From Planctomycetota bacterium (GTDB lineage Bacteria; Planctomycetota; Planctomycetia; Pirellulales; Thermoguttaceae): 36,973 bases of DNA. Shown one piece after another: positions 7,252 to 23,696 of the stretch. The position numbers and the translations under genes were made by a program. A model generated the notes under the pieces. It saw nothing but the letters and a program-made list of their open reading frames with translations. It was not told the DNA's origin and did not search any database. Position 1 is the first letter of the stretch, and the number at the start of each line of letters is the position of its first letter. The DNA is taken from the NCBI GenBank assembly GCA_025353625.1, contig JANXOJ010000438.1, positions 1-36,973 on the forward strand. Reading direction: 5' to 3'.

Positions 7252-7425
7252 CGAGCCACAAAAACCTGGACTTTGCAAGTCTCCTGGAATGAAGGGCTTT
7301 TTGATTGAAACCTTTTTGGTAGACTTAGACGTGGCATTTTCCCTTCGGTTCTGGGTTTCGGGTGTCAAAACGGATGTCAACGTTATGCAACCCAACATAT
7401 CCGAACCGCAAAAACGCAGATTGTT

Positions 7426-7498
<73 letters not shown>

Positions 7499-7522
7499 TT
7501 TATCACCGAGGGGGGTGGTGCG

Positions 7523-10500
7523 TTATGCCTGCGGGGTTGGTTGATTCGGATGACCCAACGGACTTTCTGGAAAACGATTCCAGGGCCAGAAGCGACACAA
7601 AAGCGTAGCGACCATTATCGCAAGCCCCGCAATGCTGGGTGAAAGCCAAAGCCACCACCCCAAGCCGAGTGCAATTCCGAAGAGATAGGGCCATTGGATA
7701 AAGGAATTCCAAGCGACATTTGATTGTGACACCAGGGCAGCCAGCGCGATCAGTGCAAGAAAACCGGCAATCTTCGTGAAGTCGGCGTACCACGCTCGCG
7801 CGGCAATGGGGCGATAGTAGAGCGTAATCGAATCCGACGGGCCTTGGACCGTGTACGTCGAGCCCGGCGGCCCGGCGTCGGCCATCCGTTGCCACTGCGA
7901 GCAAAGTTCACCGTTGGATGTCGCATCTTTTTTATCGGGTTGGCCAATTTGGAAAGCGTCGTCGCGGGCCGCGCCGGCCTCGAAATTCGGCGGCCCGGCA
8001 ATCGTCCAAAGTGTTCGTTCGACCGGCAGGTCGCCCAATCGCGGGGCATCAAAACGGCGATGCTGGGCCCAACCGTCGCGAGCCGGATTGGCGGCATTCG
8101 GCGCGTAGTAAAGCATCTCGACGCGGGCGTTGGGCCGGTCTCCGGAGAGCGGCACCAGCCACTTGCACGGGCCCGCCGAAACGGGATCAACCGGCACGCC
8201 GGCAACGGAAAGTTGCAACAGTTCGGCCCCTTTGGGCAGTTCGGTGGGGCAATCGAACGTTTGCGCCGTTTCGACATCGAAGATTGCGAGGCCCAGCGTG
8301 CGGCCATCGCCCTGCCAGACAATCCGCAGATCGGCTGCGCTGACGCGGGTCGAGTTGCCAGAGTGCCGTGATTCTTGCAGCGTCGCCTGCCAAGGTTCGC
8401 CGGTTACTTCGAGCATGGTTGACTCCGCGCCGCTGAAGAGATTGGGCAAGTCAACGTGCCGCAGATTTTGCGTCGTCCAGAAGATAGGCCGGTTATCGAC
8501 CTTGGCCGGCAAGACGAGGTACTTCTTGAGGGACGCGATCTGCCGCATGGAGATATCCGCGACGGCCACTTTGCGCGCAGTGCCGTTGAGCGGGCTGGTT
8601 ACCGTGAACGCGAAGTCCCCGGAAATCGCGATTGTTGGCCGAAGCAAGAGCCGAGTGCGCTGGTCGGAAACGTGACTTGCCGAAACCACCATGGGAGGGC
8701 TCGTTGTGAACGGCCCGGTCCAATACGCGGGCGCGTCGAGTTCGATCACGTCGACGAGACCGTTGGAAACGTGCATGCGGCAATCGACGACCGCTTGCCA
8801 ACGATCGCCTTCCCAGCTCAGGCGAGAAATCTGCTCGGCCTTTGTTTGTGTACGATTCGGCTTGACGCCGATCGTTACTTGGGATGCCTTATTCGGATCG
8901 ACATAGAACGACTGGACGAGGCGGCCGGTTTCGTTGCGCCCGGAATCGTCCTGAGCCGGTTTGACCTCGGCCAGCCCGGCAGTGCCGGCAATATCGACGA
9001 GTGCGCCCGATTGGCGGTAGATATATACGAGTGCGTTCTGCATTCGCACATCATCGAATTTCACGAAGGGCAAGGGGACGACGCGTTTCTTTGGCAAGGA
9101 TTGGATGCCGCGAAAGTGAAATGCCTGTCGCCCCGTCACCGGCGCGGAAAGAAAGACGGTAATGCGACCGGTTCGATCTTGCGACCAACGAGCCATGCGT
9201 TCAACGCCATCGGAAGTAATGGAGATCGATTCGATTCGCAAAGGGGTAGGGGCCATCAACTGGTATTGAAATACCGAGCCGCCCGATGTTTCAAACTGAG
9301 CATCGACACGCAGCCGGCACGAATCGGCATCGAAGATGAGGGTCTGATTCTGGTCGCCGACGGTTTCCGCCAACTTTGGGTGCGTTGAGAGACCGAATTC
9401 CGCCTCGTCGTCGCTCAACTGGGCGGCGACTTGCGGTGCCGCATTGCTCGTTCCCCAGCGGGCAAGGAAATCAGGCACGCTCAACGAATCCTGGTTCCGT
9501 GCCGACGGAAGTCGATAATCCAGGCTCGAATCGATCGAGACGGCGACGCTTCGACGCAAGAGTCTGCCATTGGCGAGTTCCAACTTCGGCAGCCGCAATG
9601 TGCCCACACTTGCCGCATCGCTGCAAAGAAAGTGCAGGTCGACCGTGGCGGAGTCGACGACCGACCGCAGCCATTGAATTTCGATGGCATCGGTTGGACC
9701 ATTTCCGCGACTGGATTGGATGGAAACGCCGTCCGCAGGCTCCGAGGGAAGCAAACTCAAGGAAGGATCGGCCAGCAATCGCAGCCGACGGAGTTGGCCT
9801 TCGGAAACCTTTACCTTAAGTCGGACGTCGAGGAGTACTGCTTGCGGCAGAACTTTCATCCAAAGCAACTGTTCGATTTCCGCAACCGGACTTCCGCTGT
9901 TGGAAGGCTGCGGATCCTGCCAGCGAACCGAGAGCTTATCGCCAGATCCCAACTCGGCATTCCAACGCGATTCGATCTCTTCCCAGCGGACCTCGCCGCT
10001 AGCGGCGGGAAATGTCACGGCAGGCAGGGCAGCGGGAACCGCGAACTCGAGTCGCGAGCCTGGCAACCGAGGGATGGAAAGATCGAATCCCGTACCGTTG
10101 ACTTTCTCAACGGTTGAACGATCGCCGTGCAGTAAGTTAGGCCGCAAAGAAATTTCCAGGCGGTGCTCGCCCGCCTCGGCGATATCGACCAAGAGTGCGC
10201 TTCCATCGGGCTCCCATTCCGGTTGAACGAGGCGACCGTCGAGCGTTGCTTCGCCCGGCAAGAGCTTTCCTTCGTCGCGACGAAATGGGATGCGGACTTG
10301 AGTGGGGGCGTTGAACGTGCGGATGGAGAGATCCGCCGTAAGTCGATCGACGGCATACTGCCGCGCAATCGCATCTTCCGACAACGCGCCGCGGTAGACG
10401 GCCGACGCGATGAGCCAACCTTGCGGCTTGTCTGCCTCACGGGATGCTGCACGGTAAAGCTCATCGAAAAATGCGCCCGGAACGAAGTACTTGCCCTTCG

Positions 10501-13500
10501 TGGGCTTTTGCTTCTCGTCCACGGGGATGAAGACGGAGTAGCTGGCGGCCGCAACCTTCGTCGGCGATGCGGCCGCCGGTGCGGGTCGGTCCTTCTCGGC
10601 GGCATCGCTCCACGAGCCGCCCCAGAACAGGACACCGGCCAGCAGGGGCGCGCCGAACGGCACGTCGGATGGACAACGTTTAAGCGGAATCCCGAACATC
10701 GGAACATTCGTGCGAGTGCTGGGCAACTCGCCATGAGGCGGTCGAGTTGGCACGATGGCGGCCCACTTTCGCAGCACAACCAAAGCAACACAGAAGAGCG
10801 TTGCCAAAAATAAACGTGAAAAAATCCCCGCCAACACCGGCGGCACCACGATCGCGGCGATGCCCGCGACGGCGGCAATGCCCAAAAGCACGGCCGGTCG
10901 AGGAACCATTCGCAAGAATCCAAAACTGACCAATAAAAGAAACAGCAGCCAACCGATTCCTTCCATCGTCGCTTGGTGGACGGCGGTTACGCTAGCCTCG
11001 GTATCGAGCAAGTCAAAGCAATACTCGGACTCGCCGGACGGCCCGACTTCCTGCGCGGCATCGGTCGGGCTTCCGGTGTTCCAAAGCCGAATCGACGATC
11101 GCCAATCTTCGCTCCTAAGAGGGTTGAACATCGCCTGACCGCTACGGCGTCCCAGAGGGCCGAACAGGTTTTGCATTACGCACGGGGGATCGATCGGCGG
11201 GCCTTGAGAAATCCCGGTGGAACTACAAACGACGTAGCCCGGCGGCAACCGAAGGTGCCAACGGCGCGTAAGCACCGGTAGATCGATCTGCGGGATCGAT
11301 TCCTGTAGGCGATGGAAGGATTGCAAGGGAGATGCCGATGTGGAAAAACGAACGGCCAGCATCACCATTTCCTCACCTGGGGGCAAGTCAACGATTAGTT
11401 TAACGGATTCGGCATTTGGCGAGTCGGCATCGCTGAAGGATGCGGCCACGGGCCGATCGTTGATCGAGACTCCGTGGATACTCTTTTTCGATTGAGGTGC
11501 TCCGAACGAAAGGCACGCCTGTCGCCGACCCGCACATTGCAAGCGATAGGTCACCAAGTGATCGGCCGCACCGTTGCTTGCAAATTGTGAGTCGAGCGTG
11601 CAATCCCATGCCCACGTCCGCGAAGCAACCGCAGCCGCCGCAGTCGGCGAGTCGCCGGAACGAGCCAGCACCAAGGCCGGCTCATCCTGAGCGGCCGATT
11701 CGCCCAACGGATCGTACTGGTAGGTAGCGCGAATGGTTTGATACTGCCCCCGTGCGACCGGTTCGGTTGCCAGCAGTTTGAGACGGCAGTTCTTAATCGC
11801 GACGGGCTGCGTTCCCACGCTTCTTATGACGAGCGTGCCCTCTTGGCGTGCCGCGTCGGGCAAAGATGCAAGGCTAACGGGAACGTCGCCGGAGAAATTC
11901 ATCGCGCGCGAGGCACGAATCTCGATGGGGCTGTTGCGTGGACTCCGAAATGCAATTTCCCACGATTCCTCTTCGGTCGATTGGCCGCCGTCCGAGTCCT
12001 GATGTTCCATCCACGGCGTGGCGGTGAAGCGACTTTCGTCGAGGCCCGCAACCGACCAACGAAAGGGGACGTCCCGTCGCTGCGTAAAGTGGACGAGGAC
12101 GCGGTCGATGCGGGCCGATTTCGATGGCGTGCAGACGAATGCGTAGCTTTCCTGAAGAACCTTGTCGGTTACGGTTGCTTCGCCGCGAACGGTTGCCAAG
12201 TAGCTGGGCTTGCGGCTCTCCATGGAAACGAGCAAGTTGGTCGCGTCTCGGTCATCTCGAAACAGCAGTTCGTCCGGCGACTCGCCAAGCAAATCAATTT
12301 CAGCCGCGCCAAGTTGCTTGGGAGTTATGCGCTGCAATCGCTCGTCGTTTGTCAGCCGCAGTTCGTAGGCACCGGTCGTTCGCAGGTCGATAAGCCTCAC
12401 CGACTCCGCAAGGGAGATAAATCGCAGGGGTACAATGTCGCCCAAAGCCAGGTTTCGCCCTGGGAAGGCAAAGAGCCTGCGTGCCACAATCACGAGCCGC
12501 ACGGGACGAGCCGCCGTCAATGACCGCGCCAATCGAACCGACAGGCGATGTCCTTTGCCGCGCGCTTCCAACGTCCAGTCATCCAGCGCGTCGGCGGGCT
12601 GCGATTCGACCGTATCGATGATCCAGTTCGGAGAAACGTCGGCATTGAGTGTGAAGTCCGATCCCGCCATCGCTTGGAACTCCGTGGCTACGCGGCTACT
12701 CATCTTGCCTTGGCCCAACACCGTCGATGTGACGGACACGGCTTTGACCTTGGTAGGCCGTTGAACGAGCGAGAGTTCCAGGCCAGCGTCCGGTTTGAAC
12801 GCTTCAAATGTCAATTGTTCGCCGCTTTCCGGAGCCGGAAGTGGGGCCGCGTCCGTTTGCCGACAGCCGTTGGGTGTAATCTGGTCGATGCAAAACGGCA
12901 GCGGCAAGCGCAGTTTCATCGCGTGCGATTGCCGCACGAGGTTATCGGGAAGGATGCGAGGCAACTTCCAGGATGGTCCGGCAACGAGCGGCGCGATGGC
13001 TCGCACGCGCAACTTTAGACTTCCCTTGCCAAGAAGTTTTGGAAGCTCTACTTCCAGGCAAGAACTTTTGCCATCGCCTTTCGCGACAACATCCCAGGCG
13101 AGCGACTTGCCGCCACACGACACTTCGATCGGTTCCAACGGCGAATCCATCGACAGAACCACGCGTTGCAAAGAAACATCGTGCGCCGGCACGCTCAGTT
13201 CGGTGATAACTTCCAAGCCGTGCGGCGAAAAGTCGTAGCTGCTCGATTGGCTAGCCAAGATGAGGTTCGCCGCTTGGCTCTGGGGCTCAACTCGGGTGAG
13301 TTGAAGGCGAATGCGGCTTTGTCCCCCCATTTCGATCTGCCAGCGACGGGCACCGGCATCGGTTGCCGCGGTCCCGGCGTCGGTCGCATCGCGGACGATG
13401 ATTCCAATATCAACGCTGGGCTTCCATTCCGCTGGAAGTTCGAGGGACAGGCGATGCACCGGACAGGGCGGAAAAACTATCTCAAAAACGACGCTATTCG

Positions 13501-14044
13501 CCGCATCGTGCCGGCCGATCAGGGACCAAGGCAGCGTCAACTGCCCCGATCGGTCGGCCAACAAATGCAGCTTGCCATCGGCCGCGACACCCACTTCCGC
13601 AACGAGGCCGCGCGTTGCCGGTTTGCCCTCGGCGGAAATCCATTTCGGTTTGCCGATAGCCAGATTGCAGACACCCAAGGGGACGAGCGTGGCGGAAGCG
13701 GCGGACTGCGAGACGACGAGCGTGCCGCTGCCTAACAGAAGCGCATCGCCCTTGAGCCGCGCTTCGTAGTACGACACAACCAGCCCGGCTCCATCGCGCT
13801 CAGGCATATCGGGAGAATTGCGTTGGCTCAAACCGAGCAGCCGCTCGAATTCGGCTCCCTCCATCGGCAGGTACTTCGTTTGGCCGCTGGGCCAGTTGCT
13901 CATGCCGTCGGGAATGTAGACTCGTCGAAAGCGACTTGTGCCGTTGCCGTCGTCGGGTGGCATCGACTTTTCCGGCGGTGCCGCGAACGTCGGCAGCGAT
14001 ACGGCAATCAAGCAAAACGTTAGTAACGTAATTGGAAGTCTCAT
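7523..14044 (-). CDS. Giant 2173-aa membrane-anchored protein, apparent fusion of two ectodomain/3-TM units
   Basis: I do not recognise a named family. Residues 1-22 are a Sec signal peptide. Unit 1 runs from VYIPDG (about 43) through a beta-rich ectodomain to three hydrophobic helices at about 1029-1092 (GIGWLLFLLLVSFGF onward). A cytoplasmic linker follows, then a signal-peptide-like segment (APLLAGVLFWGGSWSDAA, about 1129-1147). Unit 2 starts again with VFIPVD (about 1167) and ends with three helices at about 2085-2155. Both units open with the pattern (V)-(Y/F)-I-P, then KYLP or KYFVP, then FERLL or FFDELY, and the upstream protein opens similarly. The predicted topology puts both ectodomains outside and the linker and C-terminus inside. 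The ATG overlaps the upstream stop codon as ATGA, so the two genes are probably translationally coupled. No catalytic motif is apparent; an adhesive, structural or sensing envelope role is only a guess. Confidence 0.85.
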   Translation of the reverse strand: MRLPITLLTFCLIAVSLPTFAAPPEKSMPPDDGNGTSRFRRVYIPDGMSNWPSGQTKYLPMEGAEFERLLGLSQRNSPDMPERDGAGLVVSYYEARLKGDALLLGSGTLVVSQSAASATLVPLGVCNLAIGKPKWISAEGKPATRGLVAEVGVAADGKLHLLADRSGQLTLPWSLIGRHDAANSVVFEIVFPPCPVHRLSLELPAEWKPSVDIGIIVRDATDAGTAATDAGARRWQIEMGGQSRIRLQLTRVEPQSQAANLILASQSSSYDFSPHGLEVITELSVPAHDVSLQRVVLSMDSPLEPIEVSCGGKSLAWDVVAKGDGKSSCLEVELPKLLGKGSLKLRVRAIAPLVAGPSWKLPRILPDNLVRQSHAMKLRLPLPFCIDQITPNGCRQTDAAPLPAPESGEQLTFEAFKPDAGLELSLVQRPTKVKAVSVTSTVLGQGKMSSRVATEFQAMAGSDFTLNADVSPNWIIDTVESQPADALDDWTLEARGKGHRLSVRLARSLTAARPVRLVIVARRLFAFPGRNLALGDIVPLRFISLAESVRLIDLRTTGAYELRLTNDERLQRITPKQLGAAEIDLLGESPDELLFRDDRDATNLLVSMESRKPSYLATVRGEATVTDKVLQESYAFVCTPSKSARIDRVLVHFTQRRDVPFRWSVAGLDESRFTATPWMEHQDSDGGQSTEEESWEIAFRSPRNSPIEIRASRAMNFSGDVPVSLASLPDAARQEGTLVIRSVGTQPVAIKNCRLKLLATEPVARGQYQTIRATYQYDPLGESAAQDEPALVLARSGDSPTAAAAVASRTWAWDCTLDSQFASNGAADHLVTYRLQCAGRRQACLSFGAPQSKKSIHGVSINDRPVAASFSDADSPNAESVKLIVDLPPGEEMVMLAVRFSTSASPLQSFHRLQESIPQIDLPVLTRRWHLRLPPGYVVCSSTGISQGPPIDPPCVMQNLFGPLGRRSGQAMFNPLRSEDWRSSIRLWNTGSPTDAAQEVGPSGESEYCFDLLDTEASVTAVHQATMEGIGWLLFLLLVSFGFLRMVPRPAVLLGIAAVAGIAAIVVPPVLAGIFSRLFLATLFCVALVVLRKWAAIVPTRPPHGELPSTRTNVPMFGIPLKRCPSDVPFGAPLLAGVLFWGGSWSDAAEKDRPAPAAASPTKVAAASYSVFIPVDEKQKPTKGKYFVPGAFFDELYRAASREADKPQGWLIASAVYRGALSEDAIARQYAVDRLTADLSIRTFNAPTQVRIPFRRDEGKLLPGEATLDGRLVQPEWEPDGSALLVDIAEAGEHRLEISLRPNLLHGDRSTVEKVNGTGFDLSIPRLPGSRLEFAVPAALPAVTFPAASGEVRWEEIESRWNAELGSGDKLSVRWQDPQPSNSGSPVAEIEQLLWMKVLPQAVLLDVRLKVKVSEGQLRRLRLLADPSLSLLPSEPADGVSIQSSRGNGPTDAIEIQWLRSVVDSATVDLHFLCSDAASVGTLRLPKLELANGRLLRRSVAVSIDSSLDYRLPSARNQDSLSVPDFLARWGTSNAAPQVAAQLSDDEAEFGLSTHPKLAETVGDQNQTLIFDADSCRLRVDAQFETSGGSVFQYQLMAPTPLRIESISITSDGVERMARWSQDRTGRITVFLSAPVTGRQAFHFRGIQSLPKKRVVPLPFVKFDDVRMQNALVYIYRQSGALVDIAGTAGLAEVKPAQDDSGRNETGRLVQSFYVDPNKASQVTIGVKPNRTQTKAEQISRLSWEGDRWQAVVDCRMHVSNGLVDVIELDAPAYWTGPFTTSPPMVVSASHVSDQRTRLLLRPTIAISGDFAFTVTSPLNGTARKVAVADISMRQIASLKKYLVLPAKVDNRPIFWTTQNLRHVDLPNLFSGAESTMLEVTGEPWQATLQESRHSGNSTRVSAADLRIVWQGDGRTLGLAIFDVETAQTFDCPTELPKGAELLQLSVAGVPVDPVSAGPCKWLVPLSGDRPNARVEMLYYAPNAANPARDGWAQHRRFDAPRLGDLPVERTLWTIAGPPNFEAGAARDDAFQIGQPDKKDATSNGELCSQWQRMADAGPPGSTYTVQGPSDSITLYYRPIAARAWYADFTKIAGFLALIALAALVSQSNVAWNSFIQWPYLFGIALGLGWWLWLSPSIAGLAIMVATLLCRFWPWNRFPESPLGHPNQPTPQA

Positions 14045-17000
14045 GGTGCCGCTTTCGGGTGCAGCAGGGAGAGCGTTGCCGTCGACGAAGAGGCCGATGC
14101 GACCGCGCCGTGGCCGAACTCAACGTTTGCGGTCGATTCAACGGCCGGTGCCGGCTGCACGACGATGGCAGCGAGTGTGCTTGCCGACTCGGCTTGAAAT
14201 CGCGGTGGACGCGCGGCGGTCAATTGCCGCAACAAAGCTGCCAACAACGAAAGCCCCACGCCCACGGCGGACGCTTCGGCTGCGATCGCGGCAAGGTCCG
14301 GCCAATTGACCGCTAGCCCGCCTAAGACCACGACGAAGATCAGCAGGCTTGCTGGGCTTCGTGCCGCTCGAAAGTAAATCAACGCGAGCCCGATCAGGAG
14401 AGTCGCCCCGGAGGCGCACAACACGATCATGGAGCGACTCGCCGTGCGGATTTCGCACGGAGGCAGCTTGCCGATCGAACTGTAGAGGTAGCAGTTCTCG
14501 CCGACCGGTGCCGGCGATGCGCCCGGATGGCGAAGACCGGCCCACGCTTCCAACTCCTCCTGGGTCAAAACCGGTTGGCGTCCATAGTAAAATGTATTCC
14601 AGGCCCAGGTGAACTCGGACGTCATATCGCGCGGTGTGGCAATCACATGTTCGTCGGGCGGAAGGAGAAGCTGCCAGTAGATTCGCCGCACCCAAACGTC
14701 TTCACCGAGGCTTGGAAAGTCGAAAGCAATCTTCCCGCGCGGCGGTCGATCGCCCGAGAACGCATATCGCAGTTCGATCACATAGCGGGGCGATGCCGCG
14801 TCGGAACTCAACGGCACCAACAGCGAGCGTTCGTTGCGCGGCTGGGCTGCAATGGGAACGCCGTTAAGTTGCACGCTTGCTTGATCGCGGATTGCGCCCT
14901 CCGGCAGGGTAATTTCCAACTCGCGGCGGTGGCTTGCGACTTGAAATACGGCTCGGTCCAGTCGAATACCGCCGGAAGTCTTGCTGATCCAGGTCTGGAC
15001 CCAGGCACGCTCGACGACGAACGCCGATTCGCTGCTCGCCTCGCCCTGGACCGTGAGGATGGCCTCGGTAACTCGCTGGGTTGCTGTAAATTGCAGCGGT
15101 GCCGATGTTGTCAATTGCGGGAGGTTATTTGCTTCCTTGACCCAGGGTTCCGATTGGATGGCAACGTGCTGCCCGGCGGCAGGCGCGACGGATAGTTTAT
15201 TGCTTACCAGGTCGGCCTCGATCGGCATAATCAGCGGCACGCTCCACGGTTGGGCCGGATCGCTTGCCGAGAGAGGCTTTGCAATCGAGTAAAGGGCGGT
15301 TATCCGGCACGAACCGATGCGGGACTTTGGCAGCGCGATCCGCATGCGTAGCGATTTTTCGCCGTTGTCGGCCTTTTCGCTGAGGGGGATTGAAGAGAGC
15401 GTCTGATCCTCATACTTTAAGATCAGCCGCCCCTTCTCCGTCAACTCCCTGGGAACTTCAATCACAAAATAATCGGTCGGCTCGTGTTGGATCGTATAGT
15501 CGAGTTGTTCCTCGACCCGACAATCCTGCGGATCGAGTACGATGCGATTCGAGACATCGACGGAGATCGACTGTGCTTGCGGGCGGAGGTCGGCAGCGAA
15601 AACGGCCTTGGCGGCGTCGCTGCGATAGAAGAGCGGCTCCTGCTGCCGCGTCGGAAGTTCCGCCGTTGCTTCGCGGACGAACGGCACGGCCGTTTGTTGT
15701 CGGAGCAGCCCCGCCATCCTTTTCTCGTCCGGAACGACCTCGACGTTGTCGGCTGCCACAACGACCACGATGGCCGCCGACGGAGTGCTCGCTTGCGGTT
15801 GCGGAAGCATCACGGAAATGGACTTCGTATCGCCGGCTATTGGTTTGTGGGCCTTCAGACGGATTTCAAACTGCCCAATAGTTGGCTGTGCTAGCGGAAT
15901 GGTTACGGTCGGTGCCTCCGTTTCTGCGGGATCGCGGTCGATCGATGCGACGCTGTCTGGCCCCACTTCGTCAATTTGCCAGTCGCGCATGGCCACTTCA
16001 ACGGCAAAAATCTTAGCACCGCGAACCGTGTAGCGCAGCCGGGCCTCAAGTCGAGTCTGGTCTCGGTCGACGAACAAGACGTACTCCGGCTCGACGCTAA
16101 TGCGCGTCTTGCGGGGAACCAATCGCGCGGTCAACGATGAGGATTGCGTGGAGTACTCGAATCCTGCCACAATATCCTTGCGACGCACGGTTTCAGGAAT
16201 CTGGTCGAGCTGCTGGGTATCGCGGTTTGGACCCCAAAGCACCTGCCAATTGCCGGCTGCACCTACGGCAATCGTGCCCCATTGGCGGCTGGCACCGACT
16301 ACTTCAATGCCGGCAAGTTCCGTCCATGCGTCCCGTCGCGTTGGATCGCAGGTCCGCTTTGTTGTCAAATGAATCTCAACCGGGCCGGTCGTTCGTTTCG
16401 CGAATTCCACTTCAACTTGCCGACGAATGTTCGAGCTTCCGTTAAGTCGTTGTACGTCCGAAGGTTTCGCACCCTTGGGAGGTGCGGAAGGTCCGTCAAT
16501 CGCGGACAAGGTGAAGCCGTTGGTGTTGCCGGGCACCAAATCCGTATCTGGCGGAAGAGCGATTCGAAAGTGGTCGAACGCATCGCCGTAGCTGCGCACC
16601 GAAAAGGTTGCGTCGGTTTCAATGCCGCCGCGGTCGAGGTTCACCAACAGTGTGCCAAAGGCTTCGAGAATGACCGGCGACCCACCGGGGCGACTGCTCG
16701 GCGGACGCCAGGATAGCTCGAAAGCGCCGCTCAATCCGACGACGGCCAATTCCGTCGCGTTGGCTTCTATCGCCGTCGTTTGCAACGTTGCCCCTTCCGA
16801 AACTTTGGCCACGGCCTTTGACTGTGGCACTTTGAGTTTCAACTCAGAGGTAGTTGCCCGAGGGACCACGAGTCGCAGTCGAGTCTCTTGACCGGCAGGC
16901 ACGAGCGGCACGAGCATCTTCAAGGTAATCTGGTGCTGTTGCCCGGCGGGGCTGCGTATCCAGGCAACGTAGCCGTCGCCGTCTCCTTCAAAACTGAGGA

Positions 17001-17505
17001 AGTGTTCGCCCGGCCCTTGAAACTGGGCCGATTCGCGGAGCATGGCCCGATCGAGCCGCAACGGGATGCGCGTCCACTGCTCCTCGCGAACGAGGATTCC
17101 TATTTTCAAATTCAATTCGACGTAACCGGTTGCGGAAACTTCGCCGCTGGCAGAAAACTGTTGTACGCTGTAACGCGGTCGTCGATCGCCATCCACGAGT
17201 TGATGCTTGAGCTTGTAGAGCTCCTCAAAGTCCTCCAGCGTAAAGTTAGGGACCGCCTGAAGATTGCCCTGCTTATCCTTTAGATAATAGATCGCCGGAC
17301 GGCTCTCTTCAATCGACTGCGTCCGCATCGCGGACGATGGCATCGGACCGCGCGGCTCGGCGGAGGGAGGCTTTTCGGGTTTATCGAGATCGGTTGCGCC
17401 GGCCGTACCGGAGGAACTCGCCTCCTGTGCCGCCAACGGCGTCCCCGCGCAAAGGATCGGGCATAGCAATAAACTCATCACCGTTTGTATCGCAAGGCAT
17501 CGCAA
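14041..17505 (-). CDS. Giant 1154-aa membrane-anchored protein, first gene of the operon
   Basis: I do not recognise a named family. The longest reading starts at TTG 17505; an in-frame ATG at 17478 is the alternative, and neither has a clear Shine-Dalgarno. The N-terminus is a signal peptide ending near GTPLAAQ. After a Pro/Ser-rich linker, the region from AIYYLKDKQG (about 71) onward is a long beta-rich ectodomain. It shares its opening pattern (IYYL, then VPNF, then FEELYKL) with both halves of the downstream 2173-aa protein. The C-terminus carries about three hydrophobic helices (about 1026-1044, 1049-1066 and 1074-1092) and a Ser/Ala/Thr-rich tail. The stop TGA at 14041-14043 overlaps the next ATG. 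The matching architecture and coupling suggest the two products form one envelope complex in similar amounts. No enzymatic motif is visible. Confidence 0.83.
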   Translation of the reverse strand: MRCLAIQTVMSLLLCPILCAGTPLAAQEASSSGTAGATDLDKPEKPPSAEPRGPMPSSAMRTQSIEESRPAIYYLKDKQGNLQAVPNFTLEDFEELYKLKHQLVDGDRRPRYSVQQFSASGEVSATGYVELNLKIGILVREEQWTRIPLRLDRAMLRESAQFQGPGEHFLSFEGDGDGYVAWIRSPAGQQHQITLKMLVPLVPAGQETRLRLVVPRATTSELKLKVPQSKAVAKVSEGATLQTTAIEANATELAVVGLSGAFELSWRPPSSRPGGSPVILEAFGTLLVNLDRGGIETDATFSVRSYGDAFDHFRIALPPDTDLVPGNTNGFTLSAIDGPSAPPKGAKPSDVQRLNGSSNIRRQVEVEFAKRTTGPVEIHLTTKRTCDPTRRDAWTELAGIEVVGASRQWGTIAVGAAGNWQVLWGPNRDTQQLDQIPETVRRKDIVAGFEYSTQSSSLTARLVPRKTRISVEPEYVLFVDRDQTRLEARLRYTVRGAKIFAVEVAMRDWQIDEVGPDSVASIDRDPAETEAPTVTIPLAQPTIGQFEIRLKAHKPIAGDTKSISVMLPQPQASTPSAAIVVVVAADNVEVVPDEKRMAGLLRQQTAVPFVREATAELPTRQQEPLFYRSDAAKAVFAADLRPQAQSISVDVSNRIVLDPQDCRVEEQLDYTIQHEPTDYFVIEVPRELTEKGRLILKYEDQTLSSIPLSEKADNGEKSLRMRIALPKSRIGSCRITALYSIAKPLSASDPAQPWSVPLIMPIEADLVSNKLSVAPAAGQHVAIQSEPWVKEANNLPQLTTSAPLQFTATQRVTEAILTVQGEASSESAFVVERAWVQTWISKTSGGIRLDRAVFQVASHRRELEITLPEGAIRDQASVQLNGVPIAAQPRNERSLLVPLSSDAASPRYVIELRYAFSGDRPPRGKIAFDFPSLGEDVWVRRIYWQLLLPPDEHVIATPRDMTSEFTWAWNTFYYGRQPVLTQEELEAWAGLRHPGASPAPVGENCYLYSSIGKLPPCEIRTASRSMIVLCASGATLLIGLALIYFRAARSPASLLIFVVVLGGLAVNWPDLAAIAAEASAVGVGLSLLAALLRQLTAARPPRFQAESASTLAAIVVQPAPAVESTANVEFGHGAVASASSSTATLSLLHPKAAP

Positions 17506-17847: not shown

Positions 17848-18711
17848 TCATCCCTGGGGGTTCTCCGTGTCCTCTGTGGATAAAACAATTTTGTTCCGAG
17901 AGCTGGTGTCGATTCCAATCGCTTTCAAATAGGCTTCCGAAACTTTCTGCGTCCAAGGGTGATGAAAGAGGATATCGAGCAACTCAGCCCGCAGTCTTCG
18001 GCGGTTCGCGGGGATTACGATTGCACCGATATTCGGAATCTCTTTATCGTCGGGGTCGTTGGAAAGCCGTTTCTCAAGATGAACGCCATCGAAAAGAAAC
18101 TTGGCCCCCCACCCGGGAAACTCTGGATGAATGATTGGAAGATTGATGTCGTGCAGGACGACGACCGCCCCGTTGGCAAGGGAATCGAGCGTGGCAAGTA
18201 GATCGAGGACCGGCCACGGATGTTCGTGGCAGGCGTCGATAAACATGAAACCAATCCCACCGCGACCAAAATCCCGCGCCGCATCGTAAGCCACTGCCGG
18301 CGAGCGAAACGTTACCCGCTTGAGAAGTGCCGCCGGCAATTGTTCGCGGGCCGCGTCGCCCGACCGCTTCGTCTTATTTGCAAAAAAGTCGACGTCGATG
18401 TCGTAGGTCACGATATCGTAATCCGGTTCGACGCGGCCAGACTTGGCGGCGAAATGCATTGCATGGCATAGAAGTCCGGTCGAAAAACCGGACGCCGTTC
18501 CGATCTCGACAATCGGACTGCGTGCGTGCTGAAACGCTTCGCGAAAGAGAAACCTCGCATCGTGGTACGAAACCGACGTTCCATTGAGCCATTTAGGTTG
18601 GTTGTGCCAATAGGAATCGCTGAAGTTCTCCGGCGGCGTCCGTTTAACGGATCGAGTTGTTTTCGCCGATAACTTGCTTGCATTCGTCGATCTTGCTGCT
18701 TTGGTTGCCAT
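17848..18711 (-). CDS. Class I SAM-dependent methyltransferase (Methyltransf_24-like)
   Basis: A 287-aa protein with a basic, Ser/Thr/Lys-rich N-terminal tail of about 30 residues. The SAM-binding motif I is IVEIGTASGFSTGL (about 67-80), an acidic strand follows in DIVTYDIDVDF, and FIDACHEHPWPVLDL (about 157-171) matches the D-x-x-H metal/substrate loop of the Methyltransf_24 group. HDINLPI follows the next strand. Members of this group often methylate sugars or lipids in polysaccharide clusters. The ATG follows the sulfotransferase stop codon with no gap, so it is the third gene of the glycan operon and probably adds a methyl group to the glycan. The last residues (STEDTENPQG) come from a sequence resembling a dispersed ACAGAGGACACGGAG repeat, so the natural C-terminus may have been replaced. 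Confidence 0.85.
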   Translation of the reverse strand: MATKAARSTNASKLSAKTTRSVKRTPPENFSDSYWHNQPKWLNGTSVSYHDARFLFREAFQHARSPIVEIGTASGFSTGLLCHAMHFAAKSGRVEPDYDIVTYDIDVDFFANKTKRSGDAAREQLPAALLKRVTFRSPAVAYDAARDFGRGGIGFMFIDACHEHPWPVLDLLATLDSLANGAVVVLHDINLPIIHPEFPGWGAKFLFDGVHLEKRLSNDPDDKEIPNIGAIVIPANRRRLRAELLDILFHHPWTQKVSEAYLKAIGIDTSSRNKIVLSTEDTENPQG

Positions 18712-19560
18712 CTACTGTGCCTGCGCCTCTCGATACATTTGTTCGTCCGCAAGACAATACTCGAATTTTGTCCCTTGCAACGCGGCGACAACTTCGCTGA
18801 AGTTCTCGATAGTCTCTTCCAGCGGAAGGTAGGACTGCTTCTTATAGGTCGGCTGACGTTGAAAGTCGGGCTGGATTCCCAGGTGATTCGCGATTGTTTT
18901 TCGGCAGTCGGTTGCCACCGCGCCGCTAGGCTCCGGGAATACTGCGTCGTAGTCGAGGGCCAAATAGTTCTCGTAAACGGAATAGTAATTGTCGATCATG
19001 GTACTTTCGGCGTCGCAATAGCTCAGTTGCCGCATGAGGTATCCAATGTCAACGTGGACCTTACGGTCTCGATAGTCTTTTTCCGAACGGTCCAGCACCC
19101 AGACGCCGGACTGCTCGGCCTTGACCGTCGATACGACGAAGCGCAAATAGTTGCCGCGGCGAAGATTGAATACCCGCAGGCCGAACTGTTTGGTGAGATA
19201 GAAAAGATACGGCGCGAGGTTCCAGCGATACGATTCGGTGAGGAAGTGCGCATTGTTGTACTTGACGTCGATGAGCATGAACCGCTTCATCGAAAAACAG
19301 CGCAGGTAGTCGAGGAAGTTCAGGAACAGCTTCTCGTGGTTTTCGGGATTCAGTCGATTCCAATCGCGGCCGGCATCGTCGCGGATGAAATTGAAGTAAT
19401 TGATGTGGCGAAGTTCGGGCTCTTCAAGGGAGTCGCGGTCGGCAACCGAAAAGACTTCGTTGTGGCAATAAATGTCCGGATGCGTTTCCAGCACCGAGCG
19501 CAGGGCGTTCGTTCCGCTCCGCTGCCGCGCCAGTAAGATGATGATATTGGAGTAATCCAT
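18712..19560 (-). CDS. Sulfotransferase family protein
   Basis: A 282-aa protein with the fold markers of PAPS-dependent sulfotransferases. ARQRSGTNALRSVL at residues 11-24 is the 5'-phosphosulfate loop near the N-terminus, followed by LETHPDIYCHNEVF, the usual continuation in this family. LRRGNYLRFVVST (about 133-145) fits the 3'-phosphate-binding segment containing Arg and Ser. No signal peptide or membrane helix is seen, so it is probably cytoplasmic. It starts 22 nt after the glycosyltransferase stop and abuts the methyltransferase start, which argues for a shared pathway. By family it would transfer sulfate from PAPS to a hydroxyl, here probably on a sugar of the glycan built by the upstream glycosyltransferase. 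The acceptor is inferred. Carbohydrate sulfation is of interest because planctomycetes are better known for sulfatases. Confidence 0.84.
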   Translation of the reverse strand: MDYSNIIILLARQRSGTNALRSVLETHPDIYCHNEVFSVADRDSLEEPELRHINYFNFIRDDAGRDWNRLNPENHEKLFLNFLDYLRCFSMKRFMLIDVKYNNAHFLTESYRWNLAPYLFYLTKQFGLRVFNLRRGNYLRFVVSTVKAEQSGVWVLDRSEKDYRDRKVHVDIGYLMRQLSYCDAESTMIDNYYSVYENYLALDYDAVFPEPSGAVATDCRKTIANHLGIQPDFQRQPTYKKQSYLPLEETIENFSEVVAALQGTKFEYCLADEQMYREAQAQ

Positions 19561-19582
19561 AGGTGCTTATCCCAGGAGCCGA

Positions 19583-22500
19583 CTACTGCCGACTCCGCAG
19601 TCCGGGCAATTGAACGAGGTGGGAATACATGGACGGCGGCAGAAGAACGTCGCCGATCGAGGCCCGATGCCGGCCCCAATTCAAACAGGCGGGCCGCACG
19701 TACTTACCGGAACAAATCTCCGCTGCAATCCGCGACAATAGCTCGCTGAACTGCCCGCCGACGTGTTCGACGGTGAATTGCGCGCGGACGGTTTCCTGAG
19801 CGTCTTGCGACATTTGTGCCAGGCACTTGGGATCGCGCCACCATTGCACGAGCTTGCGTGCCCAATCGTCGTAATCTCGCCCCTCGACCAGGAATCCCGT
19901 CTTGCCGTGCTGCACCAATTCCGGGATACCGCTGTCCATCTCCGCGACCACCGGCACGCATCCGTGGGCCATGGCCTCGACCACCGACAGAGGAAGCCCC
20001 TCGAACTCCGAAAGCAGCACGAAGAAATCGCTCTTACTCAACTCGTCGAAAACTTCCGCCTGCTTCATGCGGCCGCAAAGCTTGATGCGGCCGTCGCGGA
20101 GGTGAGCGTGGGCCTTGGCCAGAAAAACCTCTTCCGTCTTCTCGTGGGGAACGAACCGGCCGATCAACGAGATCGTGTAGTGTACGCCCGTCTTGTCCAA
20201 TCCGGCGGCCAGATCGAGTACGTCGAGAATCCGCTTTTGATATTGCACGAGCCGACCGGTATAAATCAATCGCAGACGCCGCGACCGCGAGGGCTTCCTG
20301 GGGACGATCTGCCGCTCCAAGATGCTCGAATTGTGGATGACTTCGGCACGTGCGCCGACCGCGGGATTAAGCCCGGCAACAACACTTTTGATGTGCCCCG
20401 AGACGCAGACGACCGCATTGCAGTAGGGGCCTAGCCGATACGTTTGCTCGTAGTAGTCGTTGTCGTCCGATTGCGACCAGGCGACGACGCCGACCTTGTC
20501 CGACAGTGCCGGCGCGACGCTGTTCGCGGCGAAGTCGTAAGCCATCAGCATGATGCACGGGCCATTGTTTTCCAAATGGGCGACCAACGACTGCCATAGG
20601 CCCTCCGTGCCCGGAAGCCGCCGGTCCAGGTAGGAATACGGAATCTCCGGGAGGTGTCCCCCGCCGACCGTGGTTTTGGCAATGGTCTCGCGGTCCCGCG
20701 TGAAGAGAATTTCCGCGTTCCAACCTCGGCGAATGAGCTCCTTGCCGATCGCCTCCAAGGCCGAGTTGACTCCGCTAACCCACCAGTCGCAGCAGGGAAT
20801 GAATACCTTGCGCGTGGATGTCGCCTTGCGGGTTTCGGGAACGGTGCAAATCCTTTCCGGTACGCAGCCATCGCGGACCCCCAATTCAAGCAACGAATAG
20901 GCGTAGCCATGTACGTTTTCTTCCGCATAGGGAAGCAAGGACGAATTGGTCGGATACTTGCCCAGCGTTCGCGCGGCTGCATGAAAGGAGTCGCTCGAAT
21001 TAAATACCACGCGCGCCGAGCGGGGCAACGATGCTTCCAAGACCGCCTTCGGGCTTGCGGCCAGCCGTTCGTCGCAGAGAAGCATGCTCGGTACGCCGAT
21101 AACGTTCAGCGATTCCACGACGCGCGGTGTCGATGAAATCGCCGTGAACGGCCATCGCCCCGCCAGCGTCTTAATGAGCAGGCGCTGCGCCGAATCGCGG
21201 AGCACATCGCAGCGCAACTGATGGTCTTCAAGGACGACATACTTGGCGTTTTGAAGTTCCGCCGATGCGACGTTGCGCAATCTTAGGAAAACGATGGGGC
21301 AGCTTACGTGGTAGGTTGACGACAGAGCCTCGGAAATCCGCACGGCTCGCATCGCTTCCTCGCGACGCTCCCCATCGGCAAAGAAAATCGTCGTCCCGCT
21401 TTGCCATTGGCCTCGCTCAATTCTTGGAAACGGCCCACCCGCTAGACTCTCGACGAGCTCCTTGTGCAAATGGGAAACGAAGCGACCTTCCACGAACCCG
21501 AACGCAAGGTAGTGGGCCAGTGGATTGAGCGCCCCACGTTCGATGTCGGGATAGGTGTCGAAGTAATACTCGCTTCTGAACAAAGGATTGGGCTGGCAGG
21601 CGAGTCGTTGTCCCACATTGGTAATATAATGTACCAGGGCGTTGATGCCAGCCGCACGAAGTCCGGGCGACTGGTTGTAGTAATACTCGGTATCGAAAAG
21701 CGGGTTCGGATCCTGCTGGCCGCGAACACCGTGTACGACAAAGTGCAGCAACGGATTGATCCCGGCCACTTCCACCCCCAAATACCGTCGCGAATAATAG
21801 GCCGGATCGAAAAGCGGGTGCGGGTAATAACCCTGCCGGTAGCCGGCTTGCAGATAGTGGATCAGGGCCTCATTGACCGAGGGGAACTCGCCCGCTTGCT
21901 GCGCGTAGTGCCAGCCGTCGAAAAGCGTGAAGAGGTCGGAAACGTACTGCGGCTCAACCAGTTCTTCGATGCCGCGCACCGGACGTGCCGATCCGTTGAG
22001 CAAGTGGCCGCTTATCGGCTGCCGCGGTGTTTCCGCCTCGACTTCATCCGAACGGATCAATCCCCGCAACGAAAGCGGCTTGGCATTTTGCTTACGCGGT
22101 TCGCCGGATAGGGCGTAAATCAGACAGCTATCGTCGTCGCGTGCAATCAGAGCATAGTTGCTCTCTAAGTGCGCTCGAAACTTACTGTAGTGATCGAGCC
22201 ACCAAAACGAGTGCTGCGGAAAGACGAGGTATTCGGCTCCCTGCCGCCGCAACGATTCAAGGTGTCCAATGGCGGCGTCGCAGTCACCCGGATAATAGCC
22301 GGTATAGGAACCATCTTCGCTTCTGGGGAAATGCCAAGTGGTTCGTCCTTCCAACTCCAGAATTGTCGGATCGCCCTTGCTAACGATCGCCACCACCGCC
22401 CCCGAGGCGATCGACTTACCAACGACGCGCTGGAAACGGCGTGCGAATTCCAAGTAGGCGACTTCCGGGTCGATCGGCGGAGGTTCGTCGGCGATGCCAT

Positions 22501-22642
22501 CGTCCGCGTAGCAACCGCCGTCCATTGCCAAAAGACTAACGCCGGTAAGGGGTTTGAGTTGCAATCTCCTACGCTTGGTAGGCGGCTTGGCATGGCTTCC
22601 CCGAACCCGGCGAGCGGGTGTGGATTTGCGACTCACAACCAT
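19583..22642 (-). CDS. Multidomain glycosyltransferase (C-terminal GT4-type domain)
   Basis: A 1019-aa protein. The start is placed at ATG 22642 (MVVSRKS) because AAGGA lies 7 nt upstream; an in-frame start at 22681 lacks this. After a basic tail, residues about 55-190 form a domain with EYLVFPQHSFWWLDHY, seen in large polysaccharide-assembly proteins. Residues about 255-390 hold roughly four repeats of the form NPLFDxxYY, then GINPLLHY, then G(F)xEGR, typical of some rhamnan and surface-glycan glycosyltransferases. The C-terminal catalytic domain (about 780-990) shows the GT-B pattern: LRLIYTGRLVQYQKR, DFFVLLSEFEGLPLSVVEA (the E-x7-E nucleotide-sugar site) and GCVPVVAEMDSGIPELV. It should transfer a sugar from a nucleotide donor to a growing surface polysaccharide. 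It is the first gene of the operon with the sulfotransferase and methyltransferase. Confidence 0.9.
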   Translation of the reverse strand: MVVSRKSTPARRVRGSHAKPPTKRRRLQLKPLTGVSLLAMDGGCYADDGIADEPPPIDPEVAYLEFARRFQRVVGKSIASGAVVAIVSKGDPTILELEGRTTWHFPRSEDGSYTGYYPGDCDAAIGHLESLRRQGAEYLVFPQHSFWWLDHYSKFRAHLESNYALIARDDDSCLIYALSGEPRKQNAKPLSLRGLIRSDEVEAETPRQPISGHLLNGSARPVRGIEELVEPQYVSDLFTLFDGWHYAQQAGEFPSVNEALIHYLQAGYRQGYYPHPLFDPAYYSRRYLGVEVAGINPLLHFVVHGVRGQQDPNPLFDTEYYYNQSPGLRAAGINALVHYITNVGQRLACQPNPLFRSEYYFDTYPDIERGALNPLAHYLAFGFVEGRFVSHLHKELVESLAGGPFPRIERGQWQSGTTIFFADGERREEAMRAVRISEALSSTYHVSCPIVFLRLRNVASAELQNAKYVVLEDHQLRCDVLRDSAQRLLIKTLAGRWPFTAISSTPRVVESLNVIGVPSMLLCDERLAASPKAVLEASLPRSARVVFNSSDSFHAAARTLGKYPTNSSLLPYAEENVHGYAYSLLELGVRDGCVPERICTVPETRKATSTRKVFIPCCDWWVSGVNSALEAIGKELIRRGWNAEILFTRDRETIAKTTVGGGHLPEIPYSYLDRRLPGTEGLWQSLVAHLENNGPCIMLMAYDFAANSVAPALSDKVGVVAWSQSDDNDYYEQTYRLGPYCNAVVCVSGHIKSVVAGLNPAVGARAEVIHNSSILERQIVPRKPSRSRRLRLIYTGRLVQYQKRILDVLDLAAGLDKTGVHYTISLIGRFVPHEKTEEVFLAKAHAHLRDGRIKLCGRMKQAEVFDELSKSDFFVLLSEFEGLPLSVVEAMAHGCVPVVAEMDSGIPELVQHGKTGFLVEGRDYDDWARKLVQWWRDPKCLAQMSQDAQETVRAQFTVEHVGGQFSELLSRIAAEICSGKYVRPACLNWGRHRASIGDVLLPPSMYSHLVQLPGLRSRQ

Positions 22643-22895
22643 GCATAATTCCTTGAAATCCAGTCCGACCAGGAGCATCACTGCGGACGACTACCGATCG
22701 CGGTTTAGAAATGAGAAGTTCTAAACGAGTTCACCCAGTGCAAAGTATCATTTCCAACCGAGAAAAGTATAAATTGACGACCCCATCACCTTCCAGAGGC
22801 GTCGCGCAAACGGCGCGTTTGAGAATCTATCCTAACTCGCCTACATCGCGTTGTCTACTTTTCGATATGCCTTGCTCGATGCGCCGTGCTATCCG

Positions 22896-23696
22896 TTAAA
22901 CGTCAACCAGAGCGTGTGAAACCAACGCGGCGAGCTCTTCGTGCAATTCTTTTCCGGCGGAGGCGAGAAAACGCCCCGATCCGAAAACGACATCCCCACC
23001 TTCGGCTGACGTAACAACCCCCCCAGCCTCTTGAACGAGCAGAAGCCCCGCGGCGATATCCCAGATTTTGGTTGAAAAACCCCAGTTGACATCGAATCTC
23101 CCTGCCGCCAGATCGCACAGATTGAGCGCGGCTGATCCGGTTCTGCGTACGCCCTGACAGCGGAAGATTGCCTTGTTGAAAACGAGCAAATCGGGCGAGT
23201 CAGGTTGAACTTGGGCCGGGAAGCCACTTGCGGCCAGGGCGTCGGAAAGTCTTGCCACGCTGCTAGTTTGTATTGCGCGGCCGTTCAAGAAGGCCCCGCG
23301 ACCCTTTGCCGCAGTGAAGCACTCTTGAAGCGAAGGATCAAATACGGCCCCCACGATGACCTGGCCCCGATGTTCTAGGGCCAGCGAAACGGCATAATGC
23401 GGCACGCCATGCACGAAATTGGTCGTTCCGTCGAGCGGATCGACAATCCAGCGGTAGTCGGTTTTGCTCGGCGTACTACCGGCTTGAGGGTCTTCTTCAC
23501 CCAAGAGCGAATGGTCGGGAAAAGCTCCAAGAACGGTCGCACGCACAATTTCTTGCGCGGCAAAATCGGCCTCCGTCACGAGGTCGGCCGGGCCCTTGTG
23601 CTGAACGTGGATCCGTCCCAGCCAACTCTGGATCGTGGCCCCCGCCGCACGCACGGCCTTCTCACAAATCGACGAAAACTCAGGTAGTTGGTCCAT
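22896..23696 (-). CDS. suhB: Inositol monophosphatase family protein (SuhB-like)
   Basis: A 266-aa protein of normal length for the family. The metal-binding motifs are all present: LLGEED (Glu67, Glu68, Asp69), WIVDPLDGTTNF (Asp86, Asp89, Gly90, Thr91) and KIWDIAAG (about 211) near the C-terminus. These coordinate Mg2+ for hydrolysis of myo-inositol-1-phosphate or related sugar phosphates; the family also includes 3'-phosphoadenosine phosphatases. The latter would fit the nearby sulfotransferase, which makes 3'-phosphoadenosine-5'-phosphate as a by-product, but sequence alone does not decide the substrate. It lies about 250 nt upstream of the glycosyltransferase start on the same strand. A plus-strand frame overlaps it but is a shadow. 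Confidence 0.92.
   Translation of the reverse strand: MDQLPEFSSICEKAVRAAGATIQSWLGRIHVQHKGPADLVTEADFAAQEIVRATVLGAFPDHSLLGEEDPQAGSTPSKTDYRWIVDPLDGTTNFVHGVPHYAVSLALEHRGQVIVGAVFDPSLQECFTAAKGRGAFLNGRAIQTSSVARLSDALAASGFPAQVQPDSPDLLVFNKAIFRCQGVRRTGSAALNLCDLAAGRFDVNWGFSTKIWDIAAGLLLVQEAGGVVTSAEGGDVVFGSGRFLASAGKELHEELAALVSHALVDV

Follow-up and report, generated by a model that had tools for sequence, protein, structure and literature searches.

A predicted glycan-modification cassette encoding a glycosyltransferase, a sulfotransferase and a methyltransferase in a planctomycete genome

Results

Three adjacent genes on one strand

We analysed a stretch of 36,973 nucleotides from a planctomycete of the family Thermoguttaceae (assembly GCA_025353625.1, contig JANXOJ010000438.1), referred to here as the window. 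Three adjacent and co-linear genes occupy positions 17848-22642 of its minus strand, and encode a GT4-type glycosyltransferase (GT), a PAPS-type sulfotransferase (ST) and a Methyltransf_24 methyltransferase (MT) (Table 1). The gap between GT and ST is exactly 22 nt and that between ST and MT is 0 nt, with the ATG of the MT following directly on the stop codon of the ST; the coordinates and gaps given in the initial annotation were thus exact when checked against the open reading frames. The GT can be read from a GTG at 22681 (1032 aa) or from an in-frame ATG at 22642 (1019 aa), which is preceded by AAGGA and was the start chosen earlier. As a control for ORF length, the region was shuffled 300 times, and the longest open stretch had a median of 149 aa and a maximum of 361 aa. 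The GT frame was far above chance length. The ST and MT frames (282 and 287 aa) exceeded the shuffle median and lay below the maximum, and these two genes therefore rest on homology.

Table 1. Features of the trio and of the junction that it occupies (window positions).
Feature	Positions	Strand	Basis
GT gene, GT4-type, GT-B fold by family	19583..22642	-	ORF; Pfam; EX7E motif
ST gene, PAPS-type, NodH/Stf0-like, 282 aa	18712-19560	-	Profile match, fold search, relatives by cysD/cysN(C)
MT gene, SAM-dependent, Methyltransf_24, 287 aa	17848-18711	-	50.8 bits against a cut-off of 26.3
GT N-terminal domain without Pfam match, residues ~67-206 of the 1032-aa reading	22064..22483	-	Copies on contig C256
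GT-associated repeats FDxxYY...NPLxHY, ~38 aa each, mid-GT	21467..21925	-	DNA repeat family D1, spacing 114-117 nt
Catalytic GT4 region of GT	19724..20809	-	Relative in Verrucomicrobiales MAG L044
Putative 5'-phosphosulfate-binding strand-loop-helix of ST, IIILLARQRSGTNALRSVL, RxG motif R14-G16	19489..19545	-	Alignments and model
Putative 3'-phosphate-binding strand-turn-helix of ST, RVFNLRRGNYLRFVVSTVKAEQS, with R135 and S144	19108..19176	-	Alignments and model
Inserted segment	17506..22895	.	Junction of 234-636 nt in 18 related genomes, 5390 nt here

Glycosyltransferase and methyltransferase

The GT is composed of an N-terminal domain that Pfam does not match, several repeats of ~38 aa and a C-terminal GT4 region. 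It matched Glycos_transf_1 with 81.7 bits (cut-off 26.4) and Glyco_trans_1_4 with 76.6 bits, and contains the EX7E motif of the GT4 family as EGLPLSVVE. In the Verrucomicrobiales MAG L044, a GT encoded two genes away from a relative of the ST shared 31% identity with the catalytic region over 362 aa (181 bits); the best match among the 391 other genomes of the phylum reached 84 bits, in a search by a different method from that which gave 181 bits. Repeats like those of the GT were also found in GTs of other genomes, and are carried on many plasmids, both by large GTs and by further glycan enzymes. Viral contigs searched with the GT and with its N-terminal domain gave no match. A further link between sulfotransferases and these repeats is provided by a protein at locus L031 (G040:C161, 2950-6030), in which an N-terminal Sulfotransfer_3 domain and FDxxYY repeats as in the GT form a single polypeptide.

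The MT scored well above the Methyltransf_24 threshold and carries the SAM motif I IVEIGTASG at residue 67, together with IDACHEH at 158 and LHDIN at 186. On this sequence evidence it is a SAM methyltransferase of that family, with a sugar as its putative substrate.

The sulfotransferase and its predicted PAPS-binding site

The ST scored below the Pfam gathering cut-offs for both Sulfotransfer_3 (21.2 bits; cut-off 27) and Stf0 (18.6 bits; cut-off 22), and we therefore describe it as NodH/Stf0-like and not as a member of either family. Its identity as a sulfotransferase follows from its relatives, from profile matches and from a structural model. Two Verrucomicrobiales homologues (L043 and L044) score at or above both cut-offs. 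A profile built from seven ST sequences matched, in the PDB, the LPS sulfotransferase NodH (9vki, E = 6.6e-10) and Stf0 (1tex, E = 1e-5), and nothing besides these two up to E = 0.1.

An AlphaFold model of the ST had a mean pLDDT of 73 and a pTM of 0.74, with weak regions at residues 39-46, 50-70 and 102-115. Fold matches in the PDB were headed by a tyrosylprotein sulfotransferase and included Stf0, which acts on trehalose, and heparan sulfotransferases, as well as some P-loop-type kinases; TM-scores were moderate (0.4-0.54). Both putative PAPS-binding elements are present in the model. In the first, residues R14, G16 and T17 are invariant in the ST alignments, and the model places a strand at 6-11 and a helix at 14-24. 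The RxG motif is a feature of NodH in the 5'-phosphosulfate loop (PMC11625862). In the second, R135 and S144 are invariant, and the model has a strand at 129-134 and a helix at 138-151. Residue E35 is invariant across all relatives, including NodH types, and by analogy with Stf0 it may be the catalytic base. The PAPS-binding geometry anticipated for this protein is thus seen in a model of moderate quality whose fold matches include sulfotransferases, and the ST is a NodH/Stf0-like, PAPS-type sulfotransferase of predicted activity. All three enzyme types of the initial annotation hold, GT and MT by Pfam scores and ST by the evidence just described.

As a tyrosylprotein sulfotransferase heads the fold matches, the ST might instead sulfate protein tyrosine, with the set working on a glycoprotein. 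The sequence profile, however, yields only NodH-type enzymes and Stf0, and the relatives of the ST lie in glycan loci, so that we consider protein sulfation very unlikely.

The trio fills a junction that is narrow in related genomes

The trio is flanked by a gene of the inositol monophosphatase family (22896-23696) and by a gene for a protein of 1154 aa (14041-17505). We searched for this pair in 30 genomes, including that of the window. The two genes adjoin on one contig in 18 of them, with 234-636 nt (median 421) between the matched ends; in the window this distance is 5390 nt. In the remaining genomes the flanks are apart, mostly on different contigs, or one of them is missing. Neither a tRNA nor a clear flanking repeat was found at the insert. 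A 36-nt inverted match (81%; 17310-17345 and 22492-22527) lies within genes and was taken as chance.

A segment that fills a junction narrow in 18 relatives looks acquired rather than part of a native pathway. That the trio is a cassette acquired by this lineage is therefore moderately supported by these sequence comparisons, and the proposal of a native route to a sulfated glycan becomes doubtful. The GC content of ST and MT is 53-54%, against 58-62% in the neighbouring genes, and that of the GT is 59%. This difference, and the fragmentation of the genome (725 contigs, 91% complete), might also be expected if the trio were foreign to this organism and had been joined to it by an error of assembly or binning. 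We assign only a minimal probability to such an artefact, however, because genes typical of the lineage lie on both sides of the trio on one contig, and three more copies of the GT N-terminal domain are encoded in the same genome.

The single genome available from the same genus (G001) carries isomerase, oxidoreductase and TPR protein genes after the monophosphatase gene in place of the 1154-aa gene, which indicates that the junction varies within the genus. The isomerase and oxidoreductase genes of this region (G001:C114, 4153-8912) encode a SIS-type isomerase and an FAD oxidoreductase that resembles UDP-galactopyranose mutase by eye. The 1154-aa protein is kept in 29 of the 30 related genomes. 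Together with a 2173-aa gene, which adjoins it in several of them, it makes up a pair of very large genes without Pfam matches at 7523-17505 of the window. A tRNA-Arg (CCT) gene lies just downstream of the 2173-aa gene on the plus strand (7425-7499), and DUF1559 and kinase-TPR genes are also present within the window, in keeping with Planctomycetota.

Relatives of the ST and their gene company

Searches of contigs with the ST alone gave no match, and a three-sequence alignment was successful as the query. Among 147 related genomes, the ST had one weak match (E = 3e-4) and the MT had two matches. A profile search of 392 genomes of the phylum found relatives of the ST in 25, the window's own included; none was found in phages.

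The neighbourhoods of several of these relatives are informative. In Chelatococcus, two large GTs are followed by a single protein that combines an ST with an FkbM methyltransferase, and then by cysD and cysC. In G476, which belongs to the same order as the genome of the window, the ST, CysD, CysNC and an APS kinase are preceded by a pair of GT2 genes and by genes of nucleotide-sugar type. The Verrucomicrobiales MAG L044 encodes the ST, then a GT4 and then a GT that matches that of the window in both repeats and catalytic domain. The neighbours of the ST in G497 are an FkbM methyltransferase and several GT2-like genes in a row. In rhizobia, the matching sulfotransferases belong to nod operons and are encoded beside cysD-cysN. 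These arrangements show that pairings of ST with GT, and of ST with a methyltransferase, recur independently. None of the other genomes searched contained the exact trio, and the methyltransferases linked to ST relatives belong to FkbM, a family other than that of the MT. The expectation that the gene set would be conserved together thus holds for the pairs and fails for the trio, ST and MT being nearly absent from the 147 relatives.

These observations bear on whether the three enzymes share a substrate at all. No MT relative adjoining any ST was found, and the best plasmid relative of the MT comes from Alloyangia, where its locus contains dTDP-rhamnose genes and no ST; moreover, genomes of this phylum encode many GTs. 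The three genes could thus be mere neighbours, the MT especially acting on something else. Against this stand the gaps of 0 and 22 nt, the common strand, the shared insertion and the independent pairings in other genomes, and we consider the absence of a common substrate distinctly unlikely.

In a tree of 19 STs, the window sequence was nearest by path to sequences from Sphingomonadales, Chelatococcus and Verrucomicrobiales. This placement is without support, and a horizontal origin of the ST is therefore suggested and not more.

PAPS supply

The genome encodes an APS kinase on contig C486 and a Sat-type ATP sulfurylase on contig C100, both outside the window, and the genes for PAPS synthesis that had been looked for are thus present. 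A search of this genome for CysD found none, which is no evidence against PAPS synthesis given the Sat-type enzyme. It is plausible, then, that the genome makes PAPS from genes unlinked to the trio. PAPS genes together with an ST in a polysaccharide cluster are a hallmark of clusters for sulfated polysaccharide biosynthesis (PMC11641403), and this hallmark is lacking here.

A domain shared with a second contig

The N-terminal domain of the GT (~130 aa) shows the pattern VVSKGD...HFPxxxDGxYxGxYPxD...GAxYLVFPxxxxWWLxHY. Four copies are present in the window's genome, one in the GT and three on contig C256 (9837-10262, 10660-11110 and 11083-11448; locus L029, G000:C256), which are 38-45% identical to the GT copy. 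One of these is fused after a GT2, and two form a stand-alone tandem protein, for which a Pfam scan gave no match. None of the other 391 genomes in the 392-genome sample of the phylum contained the domain, and this confinement ties the trio locus and C256 together within the genome. C256 also encodes an ABC transporter and several GTs, and this cluster is possibly a partner that supplies the rest of the glycan, the link being one shared domain. A single-sequence structure model of the domain was poor (pLDDT 50) and was not used for a fold search, and profile matches in the PDB, which were short and to designed barrels, were rejected.

Discussion

Our preferred reading, which we hold with slightly better than even confidence, is that the trio is an acquired, co-transcribed cassette for glycan modification, whose products act on one common and presumably extracellular glycan. 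The GT would add a sugar from a nucleotide sugar onto a growing oligosaccharide or polysaccharide; the ST would use PAPS, the product of Sat and CysC encoded elsewhere in the genome, to sulfate a hydroxyl or amine of the same glycan, and the MT would place on it a methyl group from SAM. Nucleotide sugars, backbone GTs and export would be provided by genes elsewhere, possibly by the C256 cluster. Among the window genes scanned, none was recognised for nucleotide-sugar synthesis, a flippase, an exporter or a polymerase, and the window therefore does not hold a whole polysaccharide pathway. Without such genes, a single GT is able to lengthen or decorate a glycan, but not to make a polymer by itself. 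Of the earlier proposal that the three enzymes build and decorate one glycan, decoration is supported by the enzyme types and by the linkage of ST relatives with GTs, methyltransferases and PAPS genes in other phyla, and building is not.

The same lack of recognised polymer export genes, with only one GT, would also be consistent with the decoration of a lipo-oligosaccharide or glycolipid rather than a polymer. The closest characterised STs by profile are NodH-type enzymes and Stf0, whose known substrates are lipo-chitooligosaccharide and trehalose (reviewed in PMC11625862). We nevertheless judge this alternative somewhat improbable, since the ST relatives in Chelatococcus and Verrucomicrobiales are accompanied by several large GTs, many plasmids encode the GT repeats both in large GTs and in further glycan enzymes, and the C256 cluster shares a domain with the GT. 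A more speculative and rather doubtful extension of the cassette reading is that the N-terminal domain may be a module for glycan or partner recognition, which would tie the GT to an assembly line on C256 and to an exchangeable cassette giving the lineage its own sulfated, methylated glycan.

Discussion of planctomycetes has mostly concerned their consumption of sulfated polysaccharides. Some planctomycete MAGs are reported to hold sulfotransferase genes, and in MAGs from Shark Bay the one sulfotransferase family searched, PF13469, was reported as lacking in most orders of the phylum (PMC9723792). An ST that scores below the Pfam cut-off, as here, could be missed by a search of this type. Given that 25 of 392 genomes contained ST relatives, the phylum may make its own sulfated glycans more commonly than annotation suggests. 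Sulfated exopolymers have already been reported from Pontiella, a relative within the PVC group (PMC7356697).

The nearest known arrangements differ from the trio in instructive ways. The Chelatococcus plasmids pTAD1 (NZ_CP018096) and pCO-6 (NZ_CP012399) resemble the window in that an ST related to the one studied here (32-35% identity) is accompanied by large GTs and by a methyltransferase; unlike the window, their methyltransferase is a fused FkbM domain, the PAPS genes lie in the locus, and the GTs are not detectably related to that of the window. Rhizobial NodH-type STs encoded beside cysD-cysN (nodPQ-like) match the ST over nearly its full length (24-26% identity) and have the same PAPS-binding motifs. 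They belong to nod operons and sulfate lipo-chitooligosaccharide signals, whereas the window has no nod genes and PAPS synthesis is encoded on other contigs of the genome. Mycobacterial Stf0 (1tex) shares profile and fold similarity with the ST, and an Arg in the phosphosulfate loop, but the two are 14-15% identical in the fold alignment, Stf0 acts on trehalose, and the ST lies under the Pfam cut-off for Stf0. GTs and STs also occur together in the clusters of Vibrio sp. KMM 8419 (PMC11641403), synechan (PMC8205485) and the Pontiella exopolymer (PMC7356697). Such clusters for sulfated capsules or exopolysaccharides are larger than the three-gene cassette, and that of KMM 8419 includes export, nucleotide-sugar and PAPS genes. 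The enzyme types themselves are already known, and the trio is a further example of known glycan-decorating cassettes, with sulfation of the NodH/Stf0 type.
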